A stretch of 64,000 bases of DNA from Phorcus lineatus (taxonomy: Eukaryota; Mollusca; Gastropoda; Trochida; Trochidae). A model generated the notes under the pieces. That model ran no database searches and was not told the DNA's origin. It saw nothing but the letters and a program-made list of their open reading frames with translations. Positions 5,812 through 61,671 of the stretch are shown one piece after another; position 1 is the first letter of the stretch; the number at the start of each line of letters is the position of its first letter. Location: assembly GCA_921293015.1 (NCBI GenBank), contig OV121090.1:4588001-4652000 (forward strand), written 5' to 3'. The translations under genes and the position numbers were made by a program.

Positions 5812-6115
5812 CAATATGAGCACTTGTGCAAAAATTACGTTTGCCTAGCAACGATTGTTTTTGCGCGAGTTATTGTATTTCGTCGTCTGTGACGTCATGA
5901 CAGCATTGTTCATGATGTCACCGTAGCGGGCCGTCGGAAGGGAAGTAGGCCGTTTTCTGAATATGTCAATGCGTTTAAAATGGAATATAATTGGTAACAA
6001 TGGTATTATTACACTCGGAAGTATGTCATTTGACGTTCTTGAAACTCGCTCTCGCTCCTGTAATACAAAAATTCACACTCGTTTCTTAAAAGTAATATGA
6101 CACACTTTCTCGAGT
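5812..6115 (+). repeat. Fold-back repeat family A, plus-strand copy
   Basis: The unit has two parts. The first (about 5,812-5,900) carries atatgagcac, ttgcctagcaacg and tatttcgtcg, followed by a TGACGTCA octamer at 5,890-5,897. The second (6,013-6,115) is a fold-back: the left arm begins actcggaagtatgtcat and the right arm ends atgacacactttctcgagt, with cgctctcgct near the apex. The same two parts occur in the same order, on the opposite strand, at 61,384-61,671. It has no coding capacity. It is most simply a non-autonomous transposon (MITE-like), but no target duplication is clear. Confidence 0.65.
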
Positions 6116-8790
6116 AAAAATCTCTATATACATCCCACTAACTTTGTGCTCGTTAACTTGAAGCCACGCTATGACATCAGATCCCTAAAACCTTGTATAA
6201 ATAACATCCATGTCTCCATTAAGATCTCCTCTGACGAGCATGAACTTCCGACAGACTATTTTCGAGGTTTCAGCTGCTGAAATGTTCTTCATGACGTCTT
6301 TACATTTGTCCTTTGGTTAATCTGTGTTTTAGAAATCTTATACTCGTTTGCTCTTAACCTTTGTTTAAGAAGCTATGAGACTTGCTATTGCACTCAAGGG
6401 AAATAACTCTTTTCTCCTAGAGCGACTATCAACATCTTTTTGGTTAATTATGATCCTGTGTTGTATTTAATCGACGCGTCTTGCTTGCGGACGTATCAAA
6501 GTTTAAGAGCGAAAAACATGTTTTGATCACCTGTGCTCTAAGCCCTGTATTGTTGATAATCAAAATCGATTCCACGTTTTTTTTTGCTTGATAACATAAG
6601 CGGGCTGTTAGTCATGTTTGCATTTCGACACAATAGATGACAGCATACTTCGTTCGCAATTCTTATCATGTCCCCATGCAATTTTTCTCATTTCAATCAA
6701 CAATCGATCGAGATTAATATTATTACATTGATGTAACAGTTCATTAATAATACATTATCAAATTCCTGTGATCATGGTTAAGACAAGTGTATTGCAGTAC
6801 AGAACATTTATCCCGATAAAAAGCTCCATTTCTCATTGGTTTTCTCTTTGTTCTTGCATTATGAGATGAAAGTGAGTCCTGTCATCCCATGAACGTACTG
6901 GATATTACTACTGATGGGGAACAAAGGTTCCAAATTGGATGAGAATCATAAGCATTTGGGACATTTCCATTCGATTTCCTATTTATATGAACCAGTCACA
7001 TGGATATGAGGGACAGCCATTCGGTGCTAAAATGGAACTACAATGGATGGCAGTCATGCATTTATATATTGTCATACCGAAATAATTCAAACAAAAATGA
7101 TCACCTTGATCACTGTTTTTCAGTGAGTCTTTGAGGCTTATCTGATGTTGATGATCGCAAGCTTACACTCAACGACAAATGAAATGTCACCACATAAAAT
7201 GCAGGATAGTTTAATCCACAAGGGATAAATACATCTAAGAGAAAGTTACATATGTCTCCAGAAGCCAACTATTGTAATATTAAATTGCGAAACATTATTT
7301 GCCATGTTTCTAAAATGTGTTTGAACAGGTATGAAAATTAAATTCATACCCTGATGAGTAAACTTATATATATATATTACTATCAACATTCATACGCTTC
7401 TTGAAATAAGCATTTAAAGCAAACATTTGAAATAAACCTTATCTGGCAGTAGAATTTTGTTTTTTTAAAAAGAAAATTAGGTGACGTTTATTTTGCGATT
7501 GGGTGTAGTCCTTTTATGAGAATAGCTATTACCAAGATGAAAATTGCACTTATTATTTATATCAATATCCAAAATAGTGACGAATCCATGCCAAGAAACA
7601 GGGTATTGACGCTATATCAAGATATATAAAGAAAACACTACATCAACGTTAAATGACATGGTAATGACGCAACCTTGGTGAACATTTGAATACTCCTAAC
7701 TTTTATCATTACAAAATGCATAAAGATTGGAATATTATATTACCTTACTACTGGTTTTATTCTTATGCTGATTTTCAACAACCTATGTAGGTATACAAAG
7801 TCACCGTTACTGCAACAGGAAGCAGGTAAGGGCAATGTGGTCTTAACCATTTTAAGAATTTGTTGAAATGAATAAAATTTCGTATAAAAATTTTTTACAT
7901 TGACGAAACATTAAACTTTATATCCAAAAGCGATGAGAGAAAAAAAAGGTATTTTATGGACTTATGTTATGGGTTTAATTTTACAAATCGAATTCTTATT
8001 AATATCTGGTATTAAAATTCTGTAGGACTATGTACATTAATATTTGAAATTTATTAAACTTACACATTAACGCCACATGGATTTGATGCAAATCCAACAC
8101 TTAAAACTTATTTTTTCCATTTAATTCTGCTGAATCTAATCATAGCATATCAATAATTATAAAACTTACCCGTGTATCATATTAACATCTAGTATAGAAG
8201 CTTCTATATAATAAATAAAATAAAATAAGTTTCTGAAGACAAAGATTTAGACCGATAGCCTTTCATGTAAATACGACACTCATCATCGAAATGCATCAAA
8301 TCGAAACGAATTTACAATATAAATCAACAGTTGTGAAATGTATGTCTATTAATCATTTTTCACACCCTGACAACCTTTGTTAATTTTTTTAAAAATTTAA
8401 TTAATATAAGCTTTAACGTTATGCAAAAGCAATATAATTTGTATAAACGAGAATTTAAAATTCTCATCGAATATACACCAAACTGAATCGAATTTACAGT
8501 GTATGTTAATAGTCGCGGCACCATATACTTACTGCAAGTTATCATCTGTAATCATACTTATATACAACGACACAGAGCTTTAGCGGTGTCTATTACCATT
8601 TTCACTGAAAGACTTATTCACATTCACAAGACTTTGTCTGTGTATATTGTTACTGTTAGTAGATTGACAAGAGATTGACAAACATTTTGCATTGTTCTAG
8701 GAACTCATCAAGAGGTAGCTTGATGACATCATCTACCTAAAAGGATCTATAGATGCTAGGAGTAGCCAAGTCTTGATATCATCCTAAAAG
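6116..8790. other. Intergenic or intronic DNA, no supported gene
   Basis: AT-rich sequence without a recognisable gene. There is a short palindrome at about 7,329-7,352 (ggtatgaa…ttcatacc) and a short (ta)n run at about 7,363-7,378. The two stretches 8,281-8,344 and 8,463-8,517 share a weak resemblance (both contain tcgaa and cgaatttaca) but too little to call a repeat. Confidence 0.6.
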
Positions 8791-8794
8791 CACA

Positions 8795-8975
8795 GAGGTT
8801 TATATCCAAAAAACATGTTGGCCTCTCATGACATAGACCCAGGTTCGAATCCAATAATTTGTGACCTGAGCACCATGCTGCTTTGTGTCCCGGGGCAAGG
8901 CACTTCATCCACATTGCACACAGTCTACGCGACTGTTAAATGGGTACCTGAAAACAGGGATGAACAAAAATGTCG
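8795..8975 (+). mobile_element. tRNA-derived SINE copy
   Basis: A B-box-like ggttcgaatcc (8,842-8,852) is followed by a body reading ttgtgtcccggggcaaggca, cttcatccacattg and aaatgggtacctg. This matches my memory of a widespread marine-invertebrate SINE body in which a B box is followed by a 'gggcaaggcactt' block and an 'aaatgggtacctg' end. The A box is decayed and boundaries are approximate. It has no coding potential. Confidence 0.6.
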
Positions 8976-8979
8976 CTAA

Positions 8980-11900
8980 TTTCATAATTGTTAGAAGTGA
9001 ATTCATTTTATTACAAAACTGTTCAAGATTGTTTGTTTTTCCATATGCATATGAAAAAACTGACAGTAAATGTTGCCCTGAGGAAAATAAATTCCAGTTT
9101 CATAAAACAGTATTTTGATAATATATTGCTATCAACTTTGACCTTTTCTTATAAAGTTAAAATTCTTAACCTGTTCTGTGTAATATGTTATGAGTTAACA
9201 TGCCTTACTCTTTACACTCATGAGTACTGAAACGTTCGTAAAATGATCTAGGCTATTTATCCGAGAAAGTAAATTGCATACACGAAAGCACACGTCATAC
9301 ATGCTGTGTAAGTTTATAGTGTCAAGATATAGTGATCAAATCTTTCAATTACCCTTGTGTATATACAGTTAAGTACTTTTTCAATGATAGAGATTTGGAA
9401 AGAGCAAAAGCCTCTGTTATTTTAATTGTACCTTGTCATTTCATAGTAGCGTTGCATGCTTTGAATGATCCTGAAATACTTATTTCAAATACTCCAAAGA
9501 AGCAAAAAAACTACATGCCGTCTAAAACGGAAATAGCAACTATTACCAATTTCAATTTTGCAAAATGGTAGGTGAACAAATGTCAAAGCCGTTTCCCATG
9601 TATTCCAATGTCGTATTCTTGCAAGGTCAATTCTAATATAAAAATGTTTTTTTTTAAATGGACAATTAGATCCATACCCTACTTTTACCGAGTCTTGCTT
9701 CTGGATGCTGCTACAAGTGAAGTGGCAATAATGCGGTTTAAATTCACTGCCTGATTTACGAGCAACCTTAAAGCTAAATACCTAATCCCAGATTTAAGTA
9801 AATCCCTCCCACCGGCGAAACGATTTAGCGTTACCAAAATCCGCATGACGAACAGCATTCGATCTTGGAGAAACTTCGCGGCGATTACTCCGCTATCAAT
9901 AAAACAAGCCATGTATACAGGGACGTATAAGGTGGGTAAGCTCGACGGCAGTGCTGTCTGAAAACTAGGCTTCATCAAGCTTAGGATAGAAAACGACACA
10001 TTGCCTCACATAGACAAATACTAATTGTTTTAGATGGTGGAGAATCAGGGTGCTCATCGGCAATGAATGTTCTGTCACACGTTGATTGACTTGATGAAAA
10101 ATAGCACTGATTATGAAGTGGGCACTCTTGGCGCTGGAAAACGATTTTCTGGTCGTGGATTTTAGAAGAGGCCATCGTCACTGAATCCCTCATTTTTAAC
10201 TACTACACTGACAGGAGCCTTGGAGCAGATTGGTATCAGTCTATTGATCGGACAAGTTTGCTGGGCGTCTGAGTTTTGATGGTAGAAGATGATGGGGAAT
10301 ATAAGACAGTGATCAGTGAATCTGACCTTCCACTTCGTAAAGTTTCACTAACCATCGCTGAATTCTCCTGTGAAATTTATGGGAACAGTTTCTGCTACAT
10401 GCCATCAAATTTTATCAAACTTATTTCATTACAATCCTTCGTTCATAAGGTATAACAATTGCGTGTAAGAGCCATCGCCAATCATACAAATATCTTTTTT
10501 TCACTGAAGATGGAAGTTACTTGAAAGAATCAAATCACAGCTACATACATATATTTTTACATATAGACATATATATTGAAAAATATGACGTTAAAAGTCA
10601 ATTTTATTCGATTTTACGTATGCCTCATTTGTTCCGATGTTCTATGTTTGCATATGTCTATGAACCTACATATATACATTTAAGTTAACAACGTAGCATG
10701 ATTGCTAGGCATATTACAATACCAGTCAGTCACGAATACAATTAAGAAACATGTCTGAGGTTTCTGTTCATACGCATCTCTACAAGGCGCTAACAAAGCG
10801 GGTAATGCAGCGTCACAAAGAGAGTAATAGATGTTGTAATAGCGGTGACATAGTGGTTCGGCGAATGTAGAGTTCTCATTTCACATCTGAATGTAGCCTA
10901 GTTTCAGTTTTCACTTTTTATCTCCAGAATTAACATATTCTCATTTGTGTACATACTTTCATAGCCAAAGTAAATGTCAAATGAAATTATCAGACATTTT
11001 GCCATTGAATAAACGGACGGCTCATATCTAGCGCGTTTAAGCAGATGAGATATGATTTCAGTCATTGATTTAATTTCCAAAGACATCAAATAAACGAAAA
11101 TATCCTTCGTGTGTAAACATTTCTCATTTTAGAAATATCTTCCTGCATAACATATTGAAGTCAATGTAAATCACTGTATTGATTGTTGCATTTGAGTCAT
11201 GTCTTAGGTCCCTTGATAAAGAATACTTCTCCAGAATGACAGCGGCTATTGTGCCAAACATCTCTGATTTCTTTGAAGTTTGGAAATCATGTTGACCCGA
11301 AAGTATCGCATATATCATTGGTTACTTAAAGGCGATCCCCATCTGAAGATCGTTATTCTTTGCAGCCCGCTGCTTTTGAACACTACTCAGATTTCAGTGT
11401 ACTCAATAAAGTGAGCGAAAGAGGCGCCTACAGTATTCTATGCTTCGTCGTCTCAGCGGGTTAGTGATGCCTCCATTGCCAGGAAATGAATAAGGGTCAA
11501 CAGCTAAAATGTTACTATTTGTTCGAGAGATTTGAAATTGAATTGATTGTGCTTATGTCTTCGGGACGTGAATATAACGATGATTGAAAAGGTTTTTTGT
11601 AGAGTATAGAGAGTATATTTGCAGTCTACTGAATGGGCAGAATATTTCGTTCATGTCCGAACATCATTCTAAAACAGCACAACATCATAGTACTAATGGA
11701 TCTGTCAGTGATAATTCAATATTCTTACTCAAAGTATTTAGCAGATATGGAAAATATTTCGCACAGCTTTTATTTTCATGTTTTAAAAAAGTTGATTTCA
11801 AAATTAATATAAATCCATGAATGTCATTATCTATGATAAAACGAATTATTAAATATTAAAAAAACACTATGTTAGGTTTAGCAAGGCAAAAAATCACGCA

Positions 11901-14900
11901 GGTGCATATATGTGTTGTCACGTTCTCGCCAACATGCTTATAATTTTAAGATTCAACGATGACTGATAATTGACCCTTTCGATCACGTGACTTATACTTG
12001 CAAATAATTAATTGATGGCCATCCTTCTTTCAAACTCGTCATTTGATTATTTTCCATAATTGAAATTTTCAGGGAATCATAATTAGGAATTAATGATCTA
12101 ATGTCATAAAAATGCCTCAAACAATAATTACAACGTACTTTAGCCTTCCTAGCATCTTCGCATGCAGCAGGAGATTATCTCAAAATAGAGGCAGAACCCA
12201 GTGATTGATTCTCAACGAGAATTCTTCCTGTGCCCTCATCTTGTAGTTTGAACTCCGGAGGACATTCTCCCATCGATATTGTTATTGAACACTTAAAATT
12301 GTGATTACAAATTACCACGCACTATAATTCTTCCTATGAGATTTTCATTACCTACGTATAGGCAACTATTATAGTGCATAGTAGGTGAAGAGTGAGCATG
12401 CTTTGTGTCCAATCCGAGCAGAAATTGCCTTGAAGGGCTATAAAAATCAAGTAAACGTTATGATTGGCGGGAAACGGGTCCCTCCACAGAAGGAGTTACA
12501 ATGTGGTACAATAGCGGCGCTTCAAATCAGCGTCTATAATTGTCTCTCAGGCCATCCGAACATGCCACTCTCTGTATCGACCAGACTACTTGAAAAGATA
12601 AATAATAGATTGAATCATGCAGGTTTTGCATTCTGATATCAATATTACGTATATACTGGCGGCAGAGTGCTCTTCCCCAATTACCCTCAGGCAACGTCTT
12701 CTTCGATGGGAACATTCCGGTGCGATTTTTTTTCAAAATTCTAATGCCCTTCGTCAACCAGAATTTTGAAAAGAGCGATGCAACGAATTTGTTGGAAATT
12801 GATTTTGTGAAAATATGACGGATGCTGAGAATTTAAGGCAATGATCGAAAGTTTGCAAGTAAATCCTCCGATTTGGTGTCTTTGTTTCCTTCCGACTTCA
12901 AAATCCACGTTTCTTCTAAGCCTATGCGCAGTAATCGGACACGCGCTGATGTCCGCCATCATACATGCTAGAAAAGATTATCACCTATCGATTTTATAAA
13001 TCTGAAATCGACAACAAAATCAGCTTAATCTGAAAAAGTGTCCTATGACGTGCAAGGGCTTAGGATAAGTCGACTAAATTCGTTCACAAGTCCGGTGCAA
13101 CTTTAATCCGTCCATTTCTGCTTTCACTGTTATAACATGCGATCTATGGATTTATTTGTCTTCAGAGTTGTTTGTTTGCGATAAATCCTGTTTATGTTAT
13201 GTCTTTTCTTCATCTAATGTGTGATTGTTTAAAATCAGGCATTCTTCATTATATTTATAATTGTAAACCAAATATTCTCTGATTGCATTAACATTAATGT
13301 AATCGCTTTTGTAACATTAAATGAAGATAACTTTCGGTAGAGCAATAACGGATTTCTGGATAGCTGAAATTGTAAGGCTTTTTATTTGTTATACCTGTTT
13401 AAGCATTCTTATCATTATATAACTTAAGTTGTTGCACTTGTTTTTCAACTGCATGGGCTAGGACTAAGTGCAATAAAAACAGTGAGAAGAAACCAAAACA
13501 GTAAGCGTATTAGAACAAGCAAAATATCACGAGCCCGGTTATTTACGTTTTAACATTGCTTGATTTGTTCACCAACAGTGAAATGAAAAATGTTTGCGTC
13601 GCTGATGAGCTCTTGAACGATATTTTTGATGATTTAAGCTCTACTTTCAACAAACTCCAGGTTCCATTTAGCTTTGAAGATACAGAAAACACGTCTATGG
13701 GCTTAGATTGTTGTTTTTGGTTCGGACTAACCCCCTTCCATCGACCAACCATTACCAGACACCATCACGACTTATAGGTATATCAGTGACAGTCACAGAC
13801 CACAAACATTAATCCTGACGCAAACACATTATGTCAACTGGTGTCTCGAGTACTGCAAACCAAGGCGATTGGTATCACTTCCTGTCCATTTCGTGAGAAA
13901 TCTATAAAGCTTTGATCCAAATATTTAACCAGCTAAAGGGAAGCCCCGCTTAATGATCGGTTTATGAAGTAAACACAATTAATCTCGAACTTGTACGGGC
14001 TCTGGACTAATATTTGACATAGCTCGGGACAAGCAGAATTCCTCAAGCCTCTATATCGACGGCTGAGATAGGTCAGTGTTTCCTCGTTATACTTGGGTGT
14101 CATGGCGTATGGGTGGGTGATGATTGGTAAACTCACGGTTTGCTGTAGGCTTGAGGGGACGTCTCTCGACTGAAGCCTTTGGTTCGAATAAGAACCTTCC
14201 AGTTCCACTGTACCTTTTGGTGTCACAATATGTTTTTTTTAATACATCTGTAATATTAGGATTTTATTTTCATACTAATGAATGTTTAATAAACCATTCT
14301 TATAAACGCCCCATCAATTCAGGAATATTAAGTCATCATATTCATTCAAATGAATTACATGGTAGGCCAATCTTAATTTTATCGAAATATATACATATAT
14401 TAACATACGTTAAACGTATTAGCGGGAACTTGGTTTTCACACGTTTTCGATTAAGTGATAGGTGTTCTTTGTTCTAGACATCACTGTAATTAGCTACTTC
14501 AATTACTCACTATTTTAATGCATACACAGGCGGCAAATCTATTAGGAGAAACTCCAGGCAATGGACAGAAAAGAGTAATGACGTCACACTATCTAGTCAT
14601 TTTGTCGGTCTGTTAATGTAAGGATCATGGCAAAGGCCAATTAATTTATAATTCCAAATGAGCCGTAGACTGCAAGTCGCATTCCAATATTCCCTCACCA
14701 CCTTATTACGTAATATGGCGAGATTGCTGAAAGGCTTTAGGTAATTATTTTAGTGGCACATTTATGCTGAATGTCATGTCATTAGTGTGGGGATCAACCA
14801 GTAACTTGAGGCACTAAAACGTGTTTGTATATTGAACTCTTACCATGAATATTCGATACTGTAAAGAAACATCACGGGATAACTGCCCGTTTCAGGAACG

Positions 14901-16950: not shown

Positions 16951-16953
16951 ATA

Positions 16954-17101
16954 GATTATTACCAGAGTATGTTTTGATATCGTAAATATCATTATATCAA
17001 CAATAAAAATTGTATTAGGCGAGGTTTACCGAGCCTAATACATAGTTTTTATTGTTTATATAGTAATATTTACGATATAAAAACATACGAAGGTAATAAT
17101 C
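16954..17101. repeat. Long fold-back (arms about 67 nt, 12-nt apex)
   Basis: The left arm (16,954-17,020) runs from gattattacc to tgtattaggc and the right arm (17,033-17,101) is its near-perfect reverse complement, ending aggtaataatc. Shared inner blocks include tatcgtaaatat and caataaaaa. The apex reads gaggtttaccga, so CGAG-type motifs point at each other. One short mismatch stands out: cagag in the left arm faces the complement of cgaagg in the right. The structure has no open frame and looks like a MITE-type palindrome. Confidence 0.85.
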
Positions 17102-17160: not shown

Positions 17161-17476
17161 GTCATAGGATAATGACGTCACACTAGAACAAAATAGTCCA
17201 ATTTGTCAAACCTTTTACAACAACAGTGTACGCGTTCGCTTGAATAAAACATCACACAAACGCTAACAGGTCACGTTCAAAAGTTCTCGCACCGCGTTAT
17301 ACTGAACACATTGTACGTCATTCCTGACTGCTGTCGGATTCAATAGCTGCAATATTCCTCTGTATTTTCGAGGAGAGGATAGAATTTTGGTGATTTATGG
17401 TCATTGACTGTGAACACCACCGGAAATGGACACATGTATTTCACTCGATGATCGAGAACAGGCTAGGTTATTCGGT

Positions 17477-17580
17477 TTTTATTGTTCATATAGTGATAAT
17501 TACGATAAAAAAAACATACGAAGGTAATAATCTCTTTATCATATAATGGTAAACCTCCTTATTTTGCTTAATTTGTGTCG
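17477..17580 (+). repeat. Direct repeat unit 2 (solo arm)
   Basis: This copy reads tttttattgttcatatagtg … cataatggtaaacctcctta and matches 17,046-17,160 with scattered substitutions and small indels. The left arm of the palindrome is absent, so no hairpin can form here. Confidence 0.75.
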
Positions 17581-17894
17581 ATGCGAACACAATCGCCGAT
17601 TGACAAGGCGCCCATGTTTGAATACATTGACGCCCTCGTCTGCAAAACATACCAAACTCGACACGTCGTTTGTATTGCTAAGGAAACGATTTAGGATTCG
17701 CTTTTCTCGGCAAGGAGCTAGCGAAAGTAGTGCGACCTTGTTACCCTCATTTGTATAGTTATCAGGGATCTGATAACATGATTACAAGATGGGTTTATTG
17801 CACCGATAACACTGCCCATTATATGATAAATATATATTTTAATACACTCATCTTACTATGCTGACTGTCATATACAATATAAAAACCATGCAAT

Positions 17895-18375: not shown

Positions 18376-18497
18376 ATAGATATACCACAAAATTACTTCA
18401 CAACCCACGGTACAGTCAACAATATGTCAAATACAAGACAGGCAGACTACAAAAAACATACAGAAGTTCACCATGAAGCCTTTTGTTGTTTAATATA

Positions 18498-18524
18498 AAC
18501 TGGCAGGCAAAAGAAAGTGAACAC
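18498..18524 (+). repeat. Terminal inverted repeat, 3' side of the Tc1 element
   Basis: The sequence begins aactggcaggcaaaagaaag and continues tgaacac. It is the reverse complement of the other end except for one g/a difference at the sixth base. Confidence 0.93.
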
Positions 18525-18745
18525 CTCATTTCATTGGCAGATAAGATTAAAACTAAAACTTCAATATAGTAAATGCGTTTATAATAAGATTAACAAGTGA
18601 ATACGTCAACGGAAAATATAAACATTTTTCAGTACCTTTAACAATAAATTGGATAATGACCCGAAAACGCAGGTAGGGTACCACAGATACAAGAAAACGG
18701 TGAGTGTAACAATGTCATATCAACTTTAGTGTCCCTCAATGGTAC

Positions 18746-19756
18746 TCAATAGTTAGTATGACCCCCTTGACGGTCAATGCATTCCTGTGCACGTCGTCTC
18801 ACTGATGACGTCAACCTTCTGATTACGTCATGGGGTATCCTGTTCCACTCTTGAATCAGGGCGTTTTCAAGTTCATTACGGTTGGCTGGTGGTTGGGGAC
18901 GTCTTCTAATCTGGCGATCAAGGTAATCCCAAAGATGTTCGATGGGGTTAAGATCCGGAGAGCGTGCTGGCCATGGAAGAACTTGAACATTGTTGTTGTT
19001 CAGGAAATCTTGAACCAGTCTTGCGGTGTGTGGCCTGGCGTTATCGTGTTGCAGTATGGTTCCCTGTCGTTGATTTCGGATGAATGGCACCACTACAGGT
19101 TGAAGAATTGTGTCCCTATATGTTTGGGCTTTCAGATTTCCGTTTATGATCACTAATCTTGTTCGCTGGTTGCCACAAATCCCTCCCCAAACCATAACAC
19201 CTCCTCCACCGAAAGCACGGACGTCCTGAATACAGTTGGGGGCCAGGCGCTCTCCTCTTCGACGGTAAACTCTTGCTCTACCATCGCACCTATACAATGA
19301 AAACCTGCTTTCGTCTGTAAAAAGCACTCGGTTCCATTCGCGGACCTGCCAGCGCCGAACAGTTGTTGCCCATTGACGTCTACGTCGCCTATGTTCGCGG
19401 GTCAAGGCCATTCCGCGCATGGGACGTTGAGGTCTGACACCTGCGTCACGGAGTCTTCTCAACACTGTGTGTTCACTGACAGGGCGTCCCAATGCCGTAG
19501 TTGCCGTTTCCGATGCCGTTCTGAAGCGGTTGCGCAGATGAAGGTTGCGTATGTAGCCATCTTCTTGAGGTGTTGTAACCCTCGGTCTCCCTGTTCTCGG
19601 TCTGTCCTGTGTTCCACCAGTCTGTTGTAAACGTTGGACTAGCCTGATGACCGTTCCACTGGTACAACGGAAGGTTCTTGCAATGTGGGTATTGATGGCC
19701 CCCATTTGTCGCATTCCTATCGCCCTTTCTCTCTCTGCTGCTGTTAATCGTGGCAT
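18746..19756 (-). CDS. Tc1-family transposase, 336 aa, apparently intact
   Basis: This enzyme cuts and pastes its own element by binding the terminal repeats and catalysing strand transfer at TA sites. Residues about 1-60 form the N-terminal helix-turn-helix half of the DNA-binding region. A GRPR-type linker (RTGRPR, about 54-59) follows, then a second helix-turn-helix to about residue 120. The DDE catalytic core is complete: D148 in TDESRF, D238 in QHDNARPH, and E273 in PDLNPIEHLWD. There are 34 residues between the second D and the E, the DD34E spacing of classical Tc1 elements. The glycine-rich block GGGGVMVWGG (about 183-192) is also typical. Length is normal for the family (about 340 aa), and there is no stop or frameshift. 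The start at 19,756 gives MPRLTAAERERAIG, the usual N-terminus in this group. Family identity is secure; activity is inferred. Confidence 0.95.
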   Translation of the reverse strand: MPRLTAAERERAIGMRQMGAINTHIARTFRCTSGTVIRLVQRLQQTGGTQDRPRTGRPRVTTPQEDGYIRNLHLRNRFRTASETATTALGRPVSEHTVLRRLRDAGVRPQRPMRGMALTREHRRRRRQWATTVRRWQVREWNRVLFTDESRFSLYRCDGRARVYRRRGERLAPNCIQDVRAFGGGGVMVWGGICGNQRTRLVIINGNLKAQTYRDTILQPVVVPFIRNQRQGTILQHDNARPHTARLVQDFLNNNNVQVLPWPARSPDLNPIEHLWDYLDRQIRRRPQPPANRNELENALIQEWNRIPHDVIRRLTSSVRRRAQECIDRQGGHTNY

Positions 19757-20009
19757 ACCTAGGGTGTATGAATTTTTTTGAGCTGTGATGGCTGACTACC
19801 GATTCACTGTATTTTTATCCACTTTACGCACATGCATTTCTCTGGAGACCCGAAGATCATGCTTTTCACATCTTCCGAAATGCACGTGTTTTTCCCGTTG
19901 GAAACTGAGTTGCGTTCGTTCAATTGCATTTTCAGTTCCCGACCCCCTTATATACACCTTCTTAAAATTATCTAACTCCCCGAAATATTTTACAAAATAA
20001 AAAATAAAA

Positions 20010-20036
20010 GTGTTCACTTTCTTTTGCCTGTCAGTT
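20010..20036 (-). repeat. Terminal inverted repeat, 5' side of the Tc1 element
   Basis: It reads gtgttcactttcttttgcct then gtcagtt on the plus strand. It lies upstream of the transposase start, with about 250 bases of leader between it and the ATG at 19,756. Confidence 0.93.
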
Positions 20037-20039
20037 TAT

Positions 20040-25836: not shown

Positions 25837-25976
25837 CAATTATAGACTGGTGACGAGGTCAATACCTGTTTTTATAGACCCGAGGAAAGCAATATTGACC
25901 TCGGACACCGAGGTCAATATTGCTTTCCTCGGGTCTATAAAAACAGGTATTGACCGAATTCACCAGTCCATAATTG
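25837..25976. repeat. Long fold-back with 47-bp perfect inner arms
   Basis: The arms are 25,837-25,904 and 25,908-25,976. The inner 47 bp of each arm (25,858-25,904 and 25,908-25,954) are perfect reverse complements, running from gtcaatacctg to gacctcgg. The loop is only aca. The outer 20 bp match apart from a few substitutions. The apex reads gacctcgg-aca-ccgaggtc. Three TGACGTCA octamers follow within 140 bases (26,065, 26,087 and 26,108). No open frame lies inside. I read it as a palindromic MITE-like element. Confidence 0.92.
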
Positions 25977-26064
25977 TTTTATTATGTTTCAAATTAGATA
26001 CGAAAGGAAAAGAAAAACTACAGTCATGAACAGCAATTTGGATCTATTCAACACGACGGTCAAA

Positions 26065-26115
26065 TGACGTCACGATAACAATACAATGACGTCATGTAAC
26101 AACGGTTTGACGTCA
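26065..26115. promoter_or_regulatory. Cluster of three TGACGTCA (CRE-like) octamers
   Basis: Perfect palindromic TGACGTCA sites lie at 26,065-26,072, 26,087-26,094 and 26,108-26,115. TGACGTCA is the consensus site of CREB/ATF bZIP factors. Three in 51 bases is far beyond chance in AT-rich DNA. They sit next to the fold-back at 25,837-25,976 and may be part of that element rather than a host promoter; no gene start is visible beside them. Confidence 0.55.
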
Positions 26116-26387
26116 TTATGTCTATGTCAAGTCAATATCACTTTTGGTCGGACTCGGAGTGAAGTCAATATGCTTTTCTGTCGACTGACACGTGACCGCT
26201 TCTCGACCAATCGGATCGCCGGAAAAATAAGCTTACATAATAATAGACCTTATTCGTACTTGAGTACGTGAGTTGGTATTAGGCCTTTTTACATATTGTC
26301 TGCGTATACTTAAAACTATTAAATCATTGTCTTTGACAATCACAGGTACATGTGTATTTGTCAGCATAACGGTTCCTAAATGTAATT

Positions 26388-41870: not shown

Positions 41871-41989
41871 CTTTATGTACACGAATGAAAATTATATAAT
41901 AGAATAATTACAGGTAAGACACATATACTCATAATAATTCGTCAATTGTTAATTTCCTTTATCATGAACCTTTCAAATCAGATATAGAG

Positions 41990-42135
41990 AATACTACACG
42001 AGGTCTCATTACGTACGAATTATACGAAACGAGTGTCCTTCCGGCGGTATCTGACCGAGCGAAAGCGAGGTCAGATACCAAAGGAAGGTCACGAGTTTCG
42101 TATAATTCGTACGTAATGAGACCGAGTGTGGTATT
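41990..42135. repeat. Long fold-back (arms 67 nt, 12-nt apex)
   Basis: Arms 41,990-42,056 and 42,069-42,135 are reverse complements with a perfect 28-bp core that begins gtctcattacgtacg and ends atacgaaac, plus a perfect ggtatctgacc next to the apex. The apex is gagcgaaagcga. Mismatches fall in short blocks, notably gag in one arm facing the complement of tcg in the other, twice. No open frame lies inside. A related partial copy of the outer arm lies at 43,226-43,258. Confidence 0.9.
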
Positions 42136-43298
42136 TTATTTATTACCCACGTTCTAAATGCAAAAAAATGGGGAAAAAAACTGTTATTTTGTAGTTTTCA
42201 TGTTTTCAAACCGAAACCAGTTTCGTAAAGCGGTTGCGGAGGAATTTCAGATTACCTATGGCCACTGCACTTCTTTTGACCTTCGTGCGTATGCGCAACA
42301 GAATAAATCCATATAGGTTTTTCAATTGAAAGAAAACGAAACCAAAGGAACAACTTAAGAACTTTAATAACAACTAACTCAAGCTTCAAAAGAAGCAAAT
42401 TTCATCTTTTCATATGTGAATAGCGTACAACTATTGTTTTTGTCATTTCGCCCCGCACAACATCTACCGTCAACCGTCACTTGAACGACACTTGACGTGT
42501 GACCTAGTTTAGCATTCGAGTCGGCTCGATCACAGGACGGGTTACGGAATTCTCACGCTTTTCCCTACCCTGACATTGGTTACTACAGAAGTTAATGTTT
42601 ATCGTGCCAACATAAGATGGGGGCAGCGAGTATCGAGTTCCTAAACCCAGGACGAGATGGAGTTGGAGCTAGTGATGGTCGCATTGTGCTGGCAGTGACT
42701 GCGTTGGATTGGGGCGGCATGGTTTGCTGAAGGGCAAGGTCACCGTCACAGGAAATAACGCTGCTAAGCTACGTTTTGATGTTGAACACACTGAATGTCC
42801 CCAGAGGTTTAACAACTGAAGTAACTCTTCCTCGCATAGTACCATCGATTGTACCATCGCTGTCATTGACACAAATGTGAGTCGCCATGTTTTAAAAAGA
42901 CATTTTAGACAGAAAAACAAAGCAGACAAACTCTTAAAAATCTATTTATTTTCCAAAAAAATGTAAATTACTTTTAGTGTCTTCCAAAAACGTACTCTTA
43001 TGCTTTGTGGTGTATTTATTTGTTCTTGTAAGTAGTTTAAGTACTATCGTTAATGCGAGATGTAACAACCTGTGAAAATGACGTAGTAAACGTTTTTAAA
43101 ATGAATGACTTCACGTGATTGTTATGAATGAAAAAGGAGTTCCGTCAGAACATGACCTAAGTGAAAGGTCAACGGTTATCCAATCAAATCGTTAGAATAC
43201 GGGTCAAATGGTTACGACACAGGTCAATGCGATACGACACTCGTGTGACGTACGGAATTAGTATGCAACTGCCTATACGCTGATCACGTGGGTAATAA
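42136..43298. mobile_element. Possible larger element bounded by TTATTACCCACG inverted ends
   Basis: Ttattacccacg at 42,140-42,151 faces its exact reverse complement at 43,287-43,298. Just inside the right end, 43,226-43,258 (gatacgacactcgtg … acgtacggaatta) resembles the left arm of the adjacent fold-back. The interior contains an 86-codon minus frame (42,669-42,929) and, in another minus frame, about 39 codons that open MATHICVNDSDGTIDGTMR. I recognise neither. The whole region may be one non-autonomous transposon with the fold-back as one end. No target duplication was found. Confidence 0.4.
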
Positions 43299-45152: not shown

Positions 45153-45324
45153 ATATTGAAATGAGGTAAACGTGAGAAATTAGGATTGAAAATACTTGAT
45201 TGATAGAAGATAAGATAAAGAGAGGTATAGAGAAATAAAGAACATATGGACCAATTTATATATATATCTTCTATCAATCAAGTATTTTCAATCCTAATTT
45301 CTCACGTTTACCTCATTTCAATAT
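45153..45324. repeat. Perfect 60-bp inverted repeat with 52-nt loop
   Basis: Arms 45,153-45,212 and 45,265-45,324 are exact reverse complements over 60 bp (outer end atattgaaatgagg, inner end tgatagaagata). The loop is 52 nt and ends in a (ta)n run. A (ta)n run also lies directly outside the left arm. Perfect identity points to a recent or actively maintained palindrome. It could be a small MITE, a palindrome made by DNA repair, or the source of a hairpin RNA. Confidence 0.95.
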
Positions 45325-53539: not shown

Positions 53540-53548
53540 AATAATAAT

Positions 53549-53583
<35 letters not shown>
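53540..53583 (+). repeat. (AAC)n microsatellite
   Basis: A short aataat run leads into about twelve aac units. Confidence 0.9.
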
Positions 53584-53589
53584 GCAAAA

Positions 53590-56500
53590 ATAGTGTTTGT
53601 TTATCCTGAAATGAGTGTTTTGTAAGACAAAGTTCATCATCGTAATATGGCAGTAATTCTCTCTCGCGAAAAAAAATGTGGGAACGTTAAAATTAAAGAA
53701 TTATGTCTAAAACTTTACGATGACGAGATTTCAATCTTCGAAAAAAACATAAAACCAAATGTCACTTGTTAGTGTTCCCTATGCATCTACATGTGTAGCA
53801 CGCGTAATGTCAAATGGGTCTTTAAGTTCAACTTGATCACTAAAATTAAGCTAAACGTTTCTACTTCTCCGCACTAAGGTGTACAACATCGATATCAAAC
53901 TCTGAAAAAGTTGGTGAATTCAAAAAGAGGAAAGTCGAAACTTCAATACTGAATAAACTTTGAAATAAGATCTATCGTCGCCTTTGGCAACATTTTACCC
54001 AAAGTGGATAATTACCTCCCTTTCAATTTGGAACGTGTATTTATTGTCTGTAGATCAATGGACGTTGAGGATATAGTTACGAGTATGCATTAAAGGTGTC
54101 AGGGAGACCGGCTTCAGTCCAGTCTGGCTCCAACACCGACACCAACGGTCTCTACACTACACTTCCACTATCAAAACCAACATTTCTCTTCGAAGGTACT
54201 TCATTAGGAAAAGCTAAAATAGAAAGCAAATCAAAGTTCAGAACTTTAACAGTGAGAGTAATTTAAATGTCTGTTCGCAGACAACTGACTGGATAATGCA
54301 TACATTATGCAAACCAAGTGTACCATGAGGTAAAGGACATAGGCGATTATCCGATCGAGACTCATCAAGGAGATTGCCGCATATATTTTCATTAAAAACG
54401 CTATATGGACCCATCTTGACTACACCACTCCTCATGATGGATGTTATCCGTGGGATTGTCGGTGTCGGGATCATCGGGCTCGCATTCTTTCTATCTTCTT
54501 CCCTCAGGCTTTTTTAAGTTGATTGTCCAGATTTTCATTACTTAAGGATGCTTATAGATCGATCTGTATTCTGATAGTAGACTTTATGTTCATCTCTGGG
54601 TTAAGATCAGCTTACAGACGCAGAGGTATCGAAGTGGCCATCTCGTTTTGCCTCATCTGATCGATAAAGGCTTACCAACCCATTTACCTAATTAGAAGGG
54701 TAGTCAGTGAAGTTATGCAACAGTGCATGTACATATTATATATCAACATGGTTGATACGAAAACATCTACGTCCATTCGTCAAGCCCGACAAAACACGGT
54801 TTATCACTTTACTTATACAACAGCATACGTGTAATGGAGGCATCTGACTAGCGTAATAGCTCAAGGGTTGCTTTTATTACACCAAGTTTGCTAGAATGAC
54901 ATTACAAACCACTCTACGATATCAGATTCCGATGACCTTTGTCTTAGCATCATTTTGATTTCAACTGAGCAAACTCGAAGCCAAGACTGTTTCCTGCTAT
55001 CTGGGCTTGTACTTGAATTTCTAAATTCGTCCAGTAACCTGTAGCTTGTGACTAAGCCTGTGTCAGTATTTTTAAATCGGCATTAATTAATGAATTTGTT
55101 TGATTCAAAAAGAAGAACGTGGGGCGAGGCGTTTCTCTTAAAATACGACTGCTGGTTTCATTATCACACGAAACCCATTGTGATTTACCATCGTCAAAAC
55201 ACCTGTCATAATTATTTGGAACTGTTGATTCAGGGTTGACACTGCTCTAAAATTGCAAAAGACATTCATTCTTATTAAGCCAAATTTGGTGATCTCCGGA
55301 ATCCAATCGTGTTTTTTTTCGACCAATCTGCCTCTGAATTTGATCAATCTATGTTTGTTGTTAAGTGTCAAAATGTGTTTGAAAATCAATAATGATTCAA
55401 ACAAAGTTGCACCTTGCTTGAATCGTGTCGTTTGAGACATTATCCTGTATGAACGAACCTGTTTCAAATGTAGTTCCCTTAAATCGATAAAAAAGTGTCA
55501 CTACAGACTATATATTTTTTTTACTGTTGGAATTTCCAAATAACACTTTCCGTAAGTTAGTGCCTGAAAATCCAACATTAAAAAATATCCATTTTCTCCC
55601 GAAATATGTTGTTTTCCAAGAGGCTTTTCTCACTACATTTCCGTTGTTCTTAAGACAACCGTATTTTGTTGTTCCTTGGTTTATTTTCAACGTGTTGAAA
55701 GAACATTATACTCGCTTTGAAACTAAAGATATACAACCCAAGCGCCGTTTTCAATCCAATCAAGTAACTTCTCAACCTACTTCTCTTTTAAGCGATCATT
55801 TACACCTCTATGTCGCATGTTTTAAAAATAAATACATCTCAAGATAAAAAACTTGAAACAAAGAATAAAACGTAGACAAAATAAAACTGATATTTTTTTG
55901 TTCTGAGCTGAGTATGTCTTTGTCTGCTAAAAGCCTTTCTACTCGGCGACCACGCAAGGAACGTGTCTTTCAGAATTCCTCTATGCTCCGTGCTTCGAGC
56001 GGACAAAGTAGTTTATGCCAATATTATTCCAATCGGATTTTCCGAACCAAAGTCTTCCCAAGACGCAGTGAGAGTTCTCTGGTTCCTAGGACAAGCGTGT
56101 GTTAATTAGCTTATGGTGCGGCCACCAAACCTTCAGATACATTTGTCGTCCATATAACAAGGTACTAAGAAACGCATGTGCTTCCTTCCCCCGTGTCATG
56201 TTAATAATACATGTATTTCATGGTAATCACCTATCGTCTGCCCAGCCTAATCTTTGTAAGACAGTGCCTATGTTATAAAGAATGCGCCCCTCGTCGTTTG
56301 TCTCTACAGGATCTCAAAGTTACTCTTTGTGTTTCAGATTGGTGCTTTGGCCACCCTTGGCGCTGTCATCACAAGCTGATCTGCGGGCGAGTCGGGCAGA
56401 TGTATATAGGGTGCTACACCTGGACGCAACACAACATCGATCTCGATTCAGCCGTCTAACGCAACGCTCTCAATCATGGTATGGCATCGTTTAGGAAACG

Positions 56501-56730
56501 CGTGTGATAGGGGGTTGGTCCGACGATAGTGTTTGCGATCTCTTCCTTCGTTTTGTCATCCTCAGTCATTTCTAGAATTTCTTCTTGGTGTTTAGATCAC
56601 ATGGCGTTCTGTTTAATTGATTCGCTTGACGATAAGCGCCATGAAATTTTACCGTATCTCATGGATATATGATTAGGAACAGCTCGTGTTAAGTGGATAC
56701 TTAATGTTGTTCCTCATTATTCGTTGAGAC
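53590..56730. other. Region upstream of the receptor gene; no supported gene
   Basis: The frames at 55,138-55,467 (minus), 55,527-55,847 (plus) and 56,211-56,494 (plus, two frames) overlap or look arbitrary. The last 800 bases before 56,731 are more mixed in composition and may hold the promoter and leader of the receptor gene. However, I see no TATA box I would commit to, and its transcription start cannot be placed. Confidence 0.5.
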
Positions 56731-57391
56731 ATGTGTCGGTGGGGAGTACCCGTGCACCTCTTGTGTGGATGTGTTACTTTACTAGCTAGCTTCTCCTTCG
56801 CTGGAAGTAGTAACATTGTAAACTACACAGTTCTGAACCACCCTGGATACGATGAACACAATTCTACAGTGATGTATATTGACGGGGTGTCCTCAGCCTA
56901 CTTACCGGAACCTACCACCCAGCCTGAACTGGATGTTGTGGAGCAGTTTCTGGAGGTCGTGGAGCAGTACCAGACGGGTAAAGAGAACTGCACACCGGGT
57001 ACCCACTATAACCTTGGGAAAGGTGTCATCAAACAGTATGGCTTGAAACGTTTCAAACGACAAGCTATGGTAGCGGTGAACCGAGCCAATTTCCTAACCC
57101 GAATCTGGATGAAAGCAGGTCCGTCTGTCACCCAGTCCGAGTACCTGTTTTACACGCAAGTGAGATCCATGGTCGAAGGGGACCCCGATATATTCGCTGG
57201 AGGAAATTGTTATGACAACTTTGAGTTTAAAAACTATTATTTATTCTGTCCATACGCGTATAGGACAGAAAATGGTCAGCTCAATGTGAAAGATCTCTCT
57301 GTTGAATACGATTACCTTGGAAATGGATCAGAGTGGTTCTATTCTGCACGATTAAAAGCTGGGAAATTAGAAAACTTCAACTACACCTTGG
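56731..57391 (+). CDS. GPR158/GPR179-like orphan class C GPCR, first coding exon
   Basis: This exon encodes 220 residues of an extracellular N-terminus. In vertebrates the family comprises GPR158, a metabotropic glycine receptor that signals through RGS7-Gβ5, and GPR179; the ligand-binding part is a Cache domain outside the cell. Residues 1-25 form a signal peptide (hydrophobic LLCGCVTLLASFSF). The block VNRANFLTRIW (116-126), followed by MVEGDPDIF (147-155) and EWFYSARL (201-208), matches the conserved start and tryptophan motif of the family's Cache region. Cysteines 87, 160 and 173 could form disulfides. N-glycosylation sequons lie at N31, N44, N86, N198 and N217. The exon ends at 57,391 in phase 1 before a perfect gtaagt donor; reading on gives only three more codons. 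The seven membrane helices and cytoplasmic tail must lie beyond the window. Family assignment is firm; a glycine ligand in this organism is an inference. Confidence 0.85.
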
Positions 57392-58214
57392 GTAAGTTGT
57401 TTTGAAAAATATTCCTTTAGTTTTTAGTAACCACATCTTCTTATTTCAGTGTATGTATTCTCGTAGAAATATTGAATTGAAATTATACTTTATGTCGCTT
57501 TTATTGCGACTTTAATAATACATGCTCGTGTTGATGGCTGATTTATCCTTTGAAGAGACTTGCACACAAGAAATTAATCACCAACGAGTCTGAAAGTTTA
57601 TAATGTCAGTTCAGAGCTTTGAGACCCGTGTGTCATGCACGTTAATAGTGTCGTGAAGACAAATGTATGCCTTCATACTTCCTATAAATCTACATGTATT
57701 TCTAGTCTTTATTCAATATACATCATTAATATTCAATTTTATGTAAATCATAACGACTGGGATTTCAAAGGTCAGTTATGATATGAGGACATTTGAACAA
57801 ATGCTACCATAAATTTAAACCATTTTGACAATCTCTTAGGAATGGTCTCTTCAGTTCTGCCTTTAAGCCGCAGGTGCGAATGATGTTTTCTCAGAATAAA
57901 AGCCCATTAGGCTTAACACTATTACAGCAGTTTTCTGTGGATTGATTGAGGTGAGGGAAGAATTCATATGATGTCTGTTTTATGAACAAAGAACTATCAT
58001 AATTTTTTGCTGAGCGTACAGAATTCTTACTTTTGAAGGAATGGAGAATATCAATGGCCAATACAATTATTAAAATATTATAACGGGTTAAGAAAGTTTA
58101 CTTTCCTTAGGTGGTATTGTGTTTGTTTTAAACACTGAACACAGTGATATATTTCTTAAACATTTTGGTTCTTTATTGTGACTTTTATTTCATGGGTTTC
58201 AAATTAAGGTGTGA

Positions 58215-58296
58215 ATGCAAGATGGACACATCTCCTATTGCCGCTAATGGCTGAAATATTGCCCAAACGGCGCTAAACAATAATTCACTCACTCAC
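58215..58296 (-). mobile_element. Fragment of a gastropod-type SINE-like repeat
   Basis: Read on the minus strand it begins gtgagtgagtgaattattg and continues agcgccgtttgggcaatatt followed by tcagcc. I recall this as the start of a very abundant repeat in abalone and other gastropods (gtgagtgagtgagttt…acgccgc…caatattccagc). Only about 80 bases are preserved. This is the main taxonomic clue in the window. Confidence 0.65.
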
Positions 58297-60106
58297 ATGT
58301 TCCGTGTTATTCTTTTACATCATTTGTTCTTTTTGAGTGCAGCCCAAATCTTTATGATCATATTTTGTTTGTGTTTATGTAGATTTTAACACAAAATTGT
58401 CAGCAATATGACGTGGCAGGTTTGTTGATTATCATAAGTTTAAGCTTAACGTACCTTTCAAACTATCGATGTGAACATAGTGCGTTTTTATATAAATACA
58501 TTTTTATCAAGTCTTCTCAATCTGCATATATGCACACCATTGGGAATTCGCTGCTTGTTTTATGAACAGTATAAGCGAATAACCTTTGCTGATGCGATTC
58601 TTAGTTCAAATTATGTCAATACATGCAAAGCATATTCAATTGAATTATTTTATTTCTGTATTTTGGGCCTTAGGCCCTGGATACAAACATTTCATACTAA
58701 GTTTTGTTAGACAAAATGCTAACTATCTACCAGTAGGTGATGCCATAAAAATTAATGATTTCTCCGGAGCTTTTTACGACACATCTTACCATCGAACTTA
58801 ACTTACTAAATGAAGTGAATTTATCTTCATGCATTTCCCCAAAGGCCGTCTTGAATAGTTTGTGTTGCAAAATCATAAAGGAGAGAAAGTGTAGTCAATG
58901 TCCGAGGATAATGTGAAGCGGATCATGCCTCGGTTGTTCCCAATGTTCATCTAATTCAATTGTTCTGTTCCTAACTTCACTCACATGTGGGATGTGTCTC
59001 TCTCAATTTCCATCTCTAAGAATGACGCTAAAATCAAATTTGCGTCTTCCAGCATCGTACGATATAAAAATGCGTTATGTAAAGATTGTTTGAAAGATCT
59101 TTCGCTGGCAACCAACGAGGCTCTATGAAAAAGAACACTGTATAATGTTTTAAGTGTTTCTTGTCAATATATATTGACGCACAAAAACATCATCGTATAT
59201 ATCATGATCCTAAAGGAGGTGTGTCTGAATCCGTGTTACATGTAATTTTTGGAGTCAATAATTCAAATATTCCCTGTATTTGAATTTGTATGAACCACGT
59301 TAAAGAATATATTCAGAAACGACATTTCTCACTACAGAGAAACAGACACGCGATACATAAATCAAGCTTACAATTCAATTATCTTGGACGTTTAAGAATA
59401 TACATGTTCTTGGAAACATTATGGTTACCGGAATGAATACTTCGCTAGGAAACTATTTCATGAATCGATTGACATTTTATAAATCTTTCCAGTCTCATTA
59501 GCGTGAAATCTGCTTGATTTATGTGCAAGAAAATATATCTCTTTGTTCAAACGTTTTCTAATCATGGTTTCTCTTTGACAGAAGCTAGATCGATACGGAA
59601 TTATGGTTTTCTCATCATAGTATTTGTTAGTCTATTTACTTTGAATGTGTATCTTACTTAATGAGCTTTTCATAGTTTTTAAGGTCATTCTGGTAAAGTT
59701 ATTCTTCAAGGGGACATTTTTCTCATCGCGTGGTAAGTTCATTTGGTCTTCTAGTATATGAGACACTGACAGATGATAGTTGAGGACACGCTTCTCTGTT
59801 TCTGTTTACACAACAAAGATTGTTCAGGAAATGACAAGAATAGACATGGCTATTTCAATATAAGGGCATAACATTTGTTCATTGTTAGAGCAGGGTTTTT
59901 AAAAAATACTTTTTCAAGGTTTATACATATTATTATATCTTAACTATCAACATCTTTCATGTCTTCGTAACATTGTTGTTAACTTCCCTCTCTATCGGTG
60001 TATTCTAAATCGACTACATCGGCGACCAAGTTCAGTTCTGAAAACGTCGACATGTTTTAGACATAGTGTGGCATAGGAAATGCTTTATTTTCTTTCCTTA
60101 CAAAGG

Positions 60107-60117
60107 GGGGGGGGGGA
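60107..60117 (+). repeat. Poly(G) run
   Basis: About eleven consecutive G residues, unusual in this AT-rich DNA. It lies in the receptor intron and may be unstable or error-prone in sequencing. Confidence 0.85.
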
Positions 60118-61383
60118 CTTGCAAGAAAATCTTGTATGTACAACAACAAAATATCGACCGAACAACGACTTACAAATTAACATTATACTTTTATAGTCTT
60201 GTCAACTAAATGAAGTTAACTTTTGGTGTCCAAATTATTCACCTTTTAGATTTAAATTTTTTTCTTTTGATTCAGTTTTTATTTAGGTAAAAAATGGATA
60301 TTGGTGTCAATAAATAACATGGAACATCCAGTTTATAGATTTTATAAGTTCGTTGACCCAAAGCTTACCTGATTGTACAGAAAAGAAACTGACATGTCAA
60401 ATTAAATCCACTTGATCTTTACCCTTTTAGCTTTGAAATAAGGTTTGTCCTCGCTTCGAATTTGTTTTAGAGAAGTGAAAGGTGAATTGAATGCATTAAT
60501 TGTAAACAGTTTAATCTTCCTCACTTCAAATAATTATCTCCTAAGTGTTTCCGAAAAGTTTTGTTTTCTATGGTCATTTATGTTCCGTTTACAAAATCCT
60601 TTGAAAGTACATTTTACATTGACTAATTTGACAACAGAATAAGGGACATCAGTAGACTTAATTCATTCTCTGATAAATAATTTTCAAAACCGACTAATAA
60701 AGGAGCTTCTGTGGAAAAGAAAAGTTAAATTCTAACCTAGACTTGCTTTTCAAGACTATATGAGAAGCACAACATATTACATAAATTATGTGCGTCAGAG
60801 CAATCATATACGGAAAGATGATTATTTACAGTATTGACTCATTCTGTTTGCAGTTAGTCTGGACCCAAAGATTTATGCTTAGTAAGTAGTCATTTAAAAA
60901 TTATGAAAATGAAACATCAGTCGCCACATATTGAAAGCAAATTTGTCTACAGAGAAATGTCAAGCTTATCATCAACCTTTATATTTCATTCGGTTCATTA
61001 CCGAAAACATTACACTTCGATAGCTGTATTTATGATTAAATCAGCTAGATCTTTATTTGTCTTTAATCAGAAATACAGCGTCTCATTTAAAGAAACGGAC
61101 ATTTAATTTCACATGTCTATGCTTTGAAAAAGCAGTGATAATTCTAACAATGGTTATTTAATCATAATAACATTATAGCCCAGTAAAAAGCAAACACATT
61201 ATAACTGTTTACAGAAAAAGTTTGGATTAACTTCGTGTTACTTTAGGGTCATTTCTTTCTTTATCATGATTGTGAAAGATCATTCTTGTCTGATCTAATG
61301 TCTGGCGCTTTCTGTGAGAAACATTGTGACGTATTTCTATTTCTGGTATACGACTAATATCTCAAATGTCGTATTTACCCGAT

Positions 61384-61671
61384 GAAGTGTGCCACATGAC
61401 TTTTATGAAACGAGTGTGAATTTTTGCAGTGCCTAAGCGAGAGCGAGGGCTTTACACAAAGTTGTATTAGTTTCGTAAAAGTCATGACACATTTCCAAGT
61501 GTCTTAATTTTTTAAGACCAATTCCTTTCTATTTTGAATCGCGTAAAAATGACAATGTGACTCGTTTTATTAACAGTCGTTTTATGACGGCACAATCGAC
61601 GAAATACGGGATTTCGCAATTAATTACCGTTGCTAAGCAAATGTGGTATGTATACATGTGCTCATATGAAA
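61384..61671 (-). repeat. Fold-back repeat family A, minus-strand copy
   Basis: Reverse-complemented, this region repeats the order seen at 5,812-6,115: atatgagcac, ttgcttagcaacg, gtatttcgtcg, then a fold-back ending in aaaaattcacactcgtttc and acacttcatc. The fold-back arms (about 61,384-61,411 and 61,470-61,497) share catgacttttatgaaac and its near complement, with cgagagcgagg at the apex. The family's TGACGTCA is here mutated to tgccgtca (minus strand). It is non-coding and lies inside the probable receptor intron. Confidence 0.68.

Follow-up and report, generated by a model that had tools for sequence, protein, structure and literature searches.

Hairpins with differing arms and one common plan in Phorcus lineatus look like the ends of a very numerous kind of mobile element

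Hairpins of the kind found in a 64-kb window of the Phorcus lineatus genome (contig OV121090.1, positions 4,588,001 to 4,652,000; 36% GC, without N; "the window" below means this whole stretch) look, from their sequences, like structures that form the ends of mobile DNA of a very numerous class, in which one plan is kept despite differing arm sequences. Their hallmark is a module in which two CGAG sequences face each other across the stem and pair as C-G, G·A, A·G, and G-C, i.e., with tandem G·A mismatches; at the apex, the design reads CGAG-C-NNNN-G-CGAG. We think it probable, if by no wide measure, that these hairpins are the terminal sites of tyrosine-recombinase (YR) DNA transposons, mostly of nonautonomous derivatives. 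Such hairpins were not described in the titles or abstract openings of the literature searched.

Abundance and common plan of the hairpins

The exact apex CGAGCNNNNGCGAG occurs 6,999 times (3,403 + 3,596) in the host genome (957.8 Mb in 74 contigs), against 367 times (177 + 190) for the reversed pattern of the same sequence used as a control; this difference excludes chance, with the counts referring to copies and not to independent events. At 99 of the 100 apex sites listed, the loop was GNRA in 62 and CTTG in 26, with 11 of the latter coming from one tandem array. When the first 20 sites in list order were taken with about 93 bases on each side, 16 folded at -28 kcal/mol or better (200 nt, DNA parameters) and four were weak (L065, L067, L070, and L072; L and C numbers are our handles for loci and contigs), and the arms were sorted by eye into six groups. 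The initial annotation of the window had proposed a constant structure with changing arms and had staked the CGAG link on a comparison with hairpins genome-wide. A shared structure is indeed kept while the arms change, and the CGAG link passes the comparison with a 19-fold excess over the reversed control.

Folding of a 264-kb sample, made up of the window and twenty 10-kb genome stretches, yielded long stems with 719 2x2 internal loops, of which GA/GA made up 11; exact CGAG/CGAG on either strand was present four times, in L037, in L042, and twice in the window hairpin at 41990. Judged by this folded sample alone, the CGAG/CGAG module is uncommon, which weighs against the observation. Among the 17 strongest hairpins of the sample, the same design was seen, apart from those of the window, in L042 (about 9680-9830), in L037 (minus strand, about 8080-8230, with CGAG facing GGAG at the apex), and in L036 (about 4110-4280, minus strand, apex AGAG-CTTG-CGAG). 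When open reading frames near the L036 and L037 hairpins were inspected by eye, a fragment of a LINE-type endonuclease was found in L037 only.

The fuller hairpins are built in a fixed order, namely, a 7-nt tip, an 8-bp foot, a CGAG/CGAG module, a 27-bp arm, a second module, an arm of 19 to 22 bp, a third module, and the loop. In 12 representatives, hand-picked for arm-to-arm alignment, the middle module was exact in 8 and missing from F6013 (L079), L065, F16954, and L036. The spacer from base to middle module measured 27 nt in seven of eight families and 26 nt in one, and the inner spacer measured 19 to 22 nt in the seven families parsed throughout. Covariation was examined at fixed offsets in eight families, with F6013 represented by L003 and not by L079. 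In the outer (27-bp) arm, 207 of 215 cells were Watson-Crick pairs, compared to a mean of 111 and a maximum of 132 in 2000 shuffles, and 72 pair types were present versus a shuffle maximum of 54; identity between the families in this arm averaged 0.46 (range, 0.19 to 0.85). With L042 and L068 removed, 155 of 161 cells were still Watson-Crick pairs, with 70 pair types (shuffle maximum, 54). As for the base module, three of the eight families carried exact CGAG/CGAG, three were changed at two or three letters, and two (L042 and L080) were complementary or nearly so.

Almost complete pairing of this kind might also come about if the arms of a palindrome were kept alike by arm-to-arm copying at replication, the CGAG being a mere remnant. 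Template switching is a known route by which palindrome arms are corrected, and the complementary or nearly complementary base modules of L042 and L080 are what copying would yield. Copying would, however, erase G·A mismatches, yet the middle module is exact, at fixed spacing, in two-thirds of the representatives (8/12) with different arms; we regard this explanation as very improbable.

All five inverted repeats of the initial annotation are present in the window at the coordinates it gave, and the apices it quoted were located at 6045-6056, 17020-17033, 25899-25913, 42056-42069, and 61435-61447. In 220-nt folds of the window, the hairpins at 25837, 41990, and 16954 were within the top five, that at 61384 was weaker (rank 13), and that at 6013 is a decayed copy. 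CGAG motifs had been said to stand in opposed orientation at each apex; this is so in the 25837 hairpin, whose apex (CCTCGG-ACA-CCGAGG) is truly complementary, whereas the other four carry their CGAGs on a single strand. Among the five, an exact facing CGAG pair enclosed by paired stems occurs only in 16954 (at the apex) and 41990 (at three levels). In 61384 and 6013, the partner in each facing pair is mutated or missing, and 25837 shares the base alone with the others. The apex is not the only mark: the G·A module can be present up to three times, the apex being one of its positions, and 25837 has no mismatch apex. The arms, in turn, had been called unrelated except between 6013 and 61384. 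These two do form one family (82% over 74 nt), but 41990, the 6013 family, and L042 also stay in register and keep the 27-nt spacing, and their similarity is graded.

Two further observations concern hairpins elsewhere in the genome. At G000:C1:4046168-4070398 (L081 and L082), 11 same-strand apices lie within 24 kb, four of their spacings being 1284-1285 bp; the array consists of tandem copies of one hairpin family, and all three modules are perfect in the two stretches read. A nearly perfect palindrome of about 170 nt at the edge of a sampled stretch (L029:30-205) is without the CGAG module.

Element ends and insertion sites

In the two families mapped, 6013 (about 360 bp) and 41990 (about 1.3 kb), the hairpin forms one terminus of the element. 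Both families start with ATAGAGA followed by an 8-nt box at the hairpin foot (TTATTACC and ATACTACA), and both finish with GGTAATAA. The window holds a complete nonautonomous element of the 41990 family, 1315 bp in length (41984..43298, plus strand), which consists of the ATAGAGA tip, the terminal hairpin, a tail, and the right end CACGTGGGTAATAA. Its hairpin (41991..42134, plus strand; loop GAAA) carries CGAG/CGAG at the base (41999/42123), middle (42030/42092), and apex (42056/42066). The box TTTATTACCCACG next to the hairpin allowed the end CGTGGGTAATAA to be predicted, and this end was located 1.3 kb away (43285-43298). When the genome was searched with a 321-nt query for this family, 34 of the best 40 of 438 candidates, the window copy being among the 40, began at query positions 53-55, i.e., 41982-41984, with 94 to 100% identity over the matched part. 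Eight further copies were taken; seven matched at 90 to 99% over at least a kilobase, the eighth matched over 333 nt only, and the right end was seen in six. No coding remnants were recognized in the 41990 element by eye, no profile search having been made. In the L080 family (200-nt query, best 40 of 811 candidates), 38 of 40 matches stopped at query positions 177-186, near the hairpin foot.

The 6013 family was searched in the same manner (best 40 of 2,001 candidates), and 27 further copies were taken. In the window, this family is represented by a nonautonomous element of 356 bp (5772..6127, minus strand) with the decayed hairpin (apex 6045-6056), TGACGTCA at 5890, GTTGCTAGGCAA at 5841, and ends that are conserved in the alignment of copies. 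A second copy (61372..61709, plus strand) has a full-length but mutated hairpin (61372-61497), an unrecognizable ATAGAGA tip, and the right end GTATGTGTAATAA; a third (528..586, minus strand) is a fragment of the outer arm only. An X-box-like sequence, GTTGCTARGCAA, is present in both longer copies.

To describe the insertion sites, 30 insertions were aligned (7 of the 41990 family and 23 of the 6013 family, window copies included), after L009 (a duplicate of L006), L015 and L021 (right end uncertain), and L023, L027, L050, and L051 (an end not found) were dropped. The left flank had A, T, and A at positions -4 to -2 in 24, 25, and 25 insertions, respectively, a signal that might partly belong to the element; on the right, 21 insertions had A at +1, 23 had T at +8, 19 had A at +9, and 17 had T at +10. 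These base counts point to a target like the palindromic CATA-N8-TATG, with the element placed at the left edge of the spacer. Two insertions lie within repeats that also have uninterrupted copies, L022 with two such copies and L056, a 41990-family insertion, with one in the window (26001..26300). In both empty-site joins, the flanks match with no gain or loss; in L056 there is a 13-nt gap 11 nt beyond the join. As to the empty sites and target duplications raised in the initial annotation, paralogous empty sites exist within this genome for these two insertions, and no target duplication was seen in any of the 30. The 6013 and 41990 families do not show the target-site duplication (TSD) by which DDE transposons and miniature inverted-repeat transposable elements are recognized. 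The notion that hairpins are newly made at random places was not supported, as those mapped are termini of defined mobile elements.

Whether such a structure acts as RNA, for instance, at the 5' end of a structured transcript, or as DNA was considered in light of its strand. The CGAG-bearing strand gave a better fold than its complement in 11 of 12 hairpins with RNA parameters and in 10 of 12 with DNA parameters, and this asymmetry, the GNRA and CTTG loops, and the C-GA-G modules are all RNA-favorable. On the other hand, the hairpin is placed at the element tip, with the terminal box as its foot, an inverted copy of this box is found at the opposite end, and an Rfam scan of the window returned no family at the gathering score. 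We think an RNA role unlikely.

The nonautonomous elements carry inverted end boxes, TTATTACCC and GGGTAATAA; read in reverse, the 6013 and 41990 families carry TTATTACCC at their tip, with GGTAATAAA adjacent to the hairpin. This arrangement brings up the main rival explanation, that of Helitron2/Helentron-type rolling-circle elements, in which the hairpin would be the 3' terminator of an HUH-helicase transposon read in the opposite orientation. The passages on these elements in PMC3627910 describe a short inverted repeat at one end with its partner directly beside the hairpin, as is seen in the two reversed families; the missing TSD, the A|A flanks (T|T in the other orientation), the tandem copies, and 53 RepHel matches in the genome are likewise in its favor. 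However, a host target that is palindromic around an 8-nt spacer forms no part of the Helitron descriptions in the passages available to us. Around two RepHel copies (14 kb each, L057-L060), the three top-ranking folds of each stretch included no such hairpin, the ends of the RepHel elements not being established, and the only coding element detected with an end of this kind carries a YR match, as described below. We judge a Helitron2 origin rather unlikely. As to the RepHel matches themselves, 20 of the 53 are on contig C25, several with open frames longer than 1,400 amino acids (aa).

A putative tyrosine-recombinase element ending in such a hairpin

A profile search of the genome with PF00589 gave 895 candidates, the best 150 of which were all above the cutoff; many had open frames of 420 or 421 aa, and some were in tandem arrays. 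In the first YR array sampled, on contig C29, the 1,081 bases between two YR copies (L083) contain a hairpin with the exact apex CGAGCGGTAGCGAG, where 0.008 exact apices would be expected at the mean genome density. Two more small CGAG-type hairpins, recognized by eye around GCGAAGC, known as an unusually stable DNA mini-hairpin, lie at L083:415-525, on the side of the other end of the YR element. A DNA search with L083:60-560 (best 40 of 154 candidates) gave matches that split at query positions 177-180, a few bases from the hairpin foot, and the two parts of the query proved to be the two ends of an element of 3.29 to 3.48 kb (about 3.46 kb). In 14 of 14 copies with both ends among the matches listed at that length, the YR match lies between the ends and the hairpin end is 5' of the gene; the open frame is 420 aa in nine and 111 to 345 aa in five. 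Outside this set are two longer copies (C1:56.4 Mb and C13:23.3 Mb), the C29 array, and five ends without a listed partner (three on C7, one on C17, and one on C19). Altogether, at least one mobile element with a putative tyrosine-recombinase gene ends in such a hairpin; from its length, the 3.46-kb element would carry no reverse transcriptase.

The initial annotation had suggested one mechanism, for example a nuclease or transposase reading the apex, rather than simple descent. An enzyme of the recombinase kind is indeed suggested by one element family with such an end, but descent matters too, since the hairpins, where element ends were mapped, belong to defined mobile elements as their termini, and these elements have fixed ends and many similar copies; the arms, moreover, co-vary in register.

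A second YR element was also encountered, with five copies in both orientations at G000:C13:26558840-26576725, frames of 421 to 426 aa, and neighbors about 3783 bp apart. A 500-bp slice of it (L084) recurs at 99 to 100% identity at 16 or more places.

Several observations weigh against assigning the hairpins to YR transposons. Five of the 14 YR copies have the short frames given above, and the putative recombinase is known from a match that spans about 60 profile residues (101-160 of 172). In the YR element, the apex module is the only one present in the hairpin, and the tips of the element (near GTACTAAATAGTAACC and CCCTAGGTGTGTAT) are unlike ATAGAGA-TTATTACC and GGGTAATAA. Among the matches listed (the best 40 per family compared by eye with the best 150 YR matches), no YR element contained a 6013, 41990, or L080 copy; the distance between one 41990 copy and a YR match was about 760 bp (C13:23.3 Mb). 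Neither a coding element with both a three-level hairpin and an ATAGAGA tip nor a recombinase of the three-level families was found. The L084 slice has no hairpin, although it is internal and reaches no end, so that it has no bearing on the ends. Lastly, YR elements are described as lacking terminal inverted repeats (TIRs), and Crypton as having short terminal direct repeats, in the relevant passages of PMC3627910.

With YR transposons still the preferred reading, a mechanism can be proposed. The element ends, which a circle would bring together as GGGTAATAA...ATAGAGA-TTATTACCC, would be joined by the recombinase to the left edge of the target spacer, and joining would leave the 7-nt core of the element at the left and the host spacer at the right. 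The circle junction would read GGGTAATAA-ATAGAGA-TTATTACCC, i.e., inverted boxes flanking a 7-nt core; inverted boxes around a short core are the usual look of tyrosine-recombinase sites. The CGAG-bearing strand would fold, and G·A modules about 31 and 23 to 26 bp apart, together with a loop that is often GNRA, would mark strand and geometry. Shape would be selected over sequence, so that the arms could drift in pairs, and the folded single strand might be recognized by the recombinase, by analogy with integron attC sites.

A broader proposal is held tentatively, and we consider it less than probable: there may be a large eukaryotic group of YR transposons whose terminal site is read by shape as a folded single DNA strand, through a special loop and evenly spaced tandem G·A modules, three at most, with the arms unconstrained in sequence, as a eukaryotic counterpart of attC serving thousands of nonautonomous copies. 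An abundant unnamed repeat is here tied to a candidate enzyme class, and a single plan detects its members regardless of arm sequence. Folded-strand recombination sites in eukaryotic transposons become directly testable, and arms of equal shape but differing sequence provide a natural substrate series.

Other features of the window and comparison with known systems

The F16954 hairpin (16951..17101, plus strand) represents a separate family, with the apex CGAG-GTTTAC-CGAG (17020-17033), the base AGAG/CGAA, and no middle module. A second copy of this type without the left arm (17475..17830, plus strand) has the probable right end CCCATTATATGATAAA, which is complementary to the box TTTATCATATAATGG beside the arm. 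The sequence at 25839..25990 (plus strand), with a base CGAG (25854) facing CGAA, a perfectly paired stem, and the complementary apex at 25899-25913, is a possible divergent relative whose membership in the group is suggested by its base only.

Two other inverted repeats are unrelated to the group: that at 45153-45324 has perfect 60-bp arms and a 52-nt spacer without CGAG, and that at 63687-63860 is an ATA/ATT microsatellite. In the Rfam scan, three matches at E values of up to 1 were taken as chance, including a subthreshold mir-310 match on the 25837 hairpin and one at 45157-45319; a MIR2118 match on the 45153-45324 repeat was weak and far under the threshold. The sequence TGACGTCA occurs 13 times in the window (e.g., at 251, 5890, 17173, 26065, 26087, and 26108), with fewer than one occurrence expected from a rough estimate by base composition, and the occurrences at 5890, 17173, and 26065 are 70 to 125 nt from hairpins. 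A Tc1/mariner element at 18495-20039 is bounded by terminal repeats of 30 bp, and its open frame of 336 aa contains DDE_3 and HTH domains.

Among systems already described, Helitron2/Helentron elements and HINEs resemble the elements reported here in having no TSD, asymmetric terminal repeats, and a terminal hairpin or palindrome, according to the relevant passages of PMC3627910, PMC4067079, and PMC7492417. They differ in that their 3' repeat is placed, in those passages, about 20 to 30 bp from the end, which makes for a short hairpin, and in that the partner there is RepHel, whereas a YR match is found here. Cryptons are eukaryotic tyrosine-recombinase DNA transposons, as outlined in sections of PMC3212892 and PMC3627910. 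The likeness lies in a DNA element with one YR frame and no target duplication, the latter shown here for the nonautonomous families; the difference lies in the ends, which in those sections have direct repeats and no TIRs, whereas the nonautonomous elements here have inverted end boxes, and no terminal hairpin of fixed plan is mentioned there. Because of this difference between direct repeats and inverted boxes, we call the elements YR-type and not Crypton.

Subterminal hairpins with conserved mismatches are recognized as single strands by the HUH transposases of IS200/IS605 and by REP-associated ones, and the hairpins here have conserved mismatches as well. Integron attC sites are hairpins that vary in sequence but keep their spacing and their unpaired marks; a tyrosine recombinase recognizes the folded strand, and the crossover occurs on one side of a spacer. 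The hairpins described here are likewise variable in sequence with conserved spacing and marks, and we claim no membership for them among attC sites, which are bacterial and have a different layout of boxes and spacer, and with which the folded strand is here compared as a proposal from sequence.

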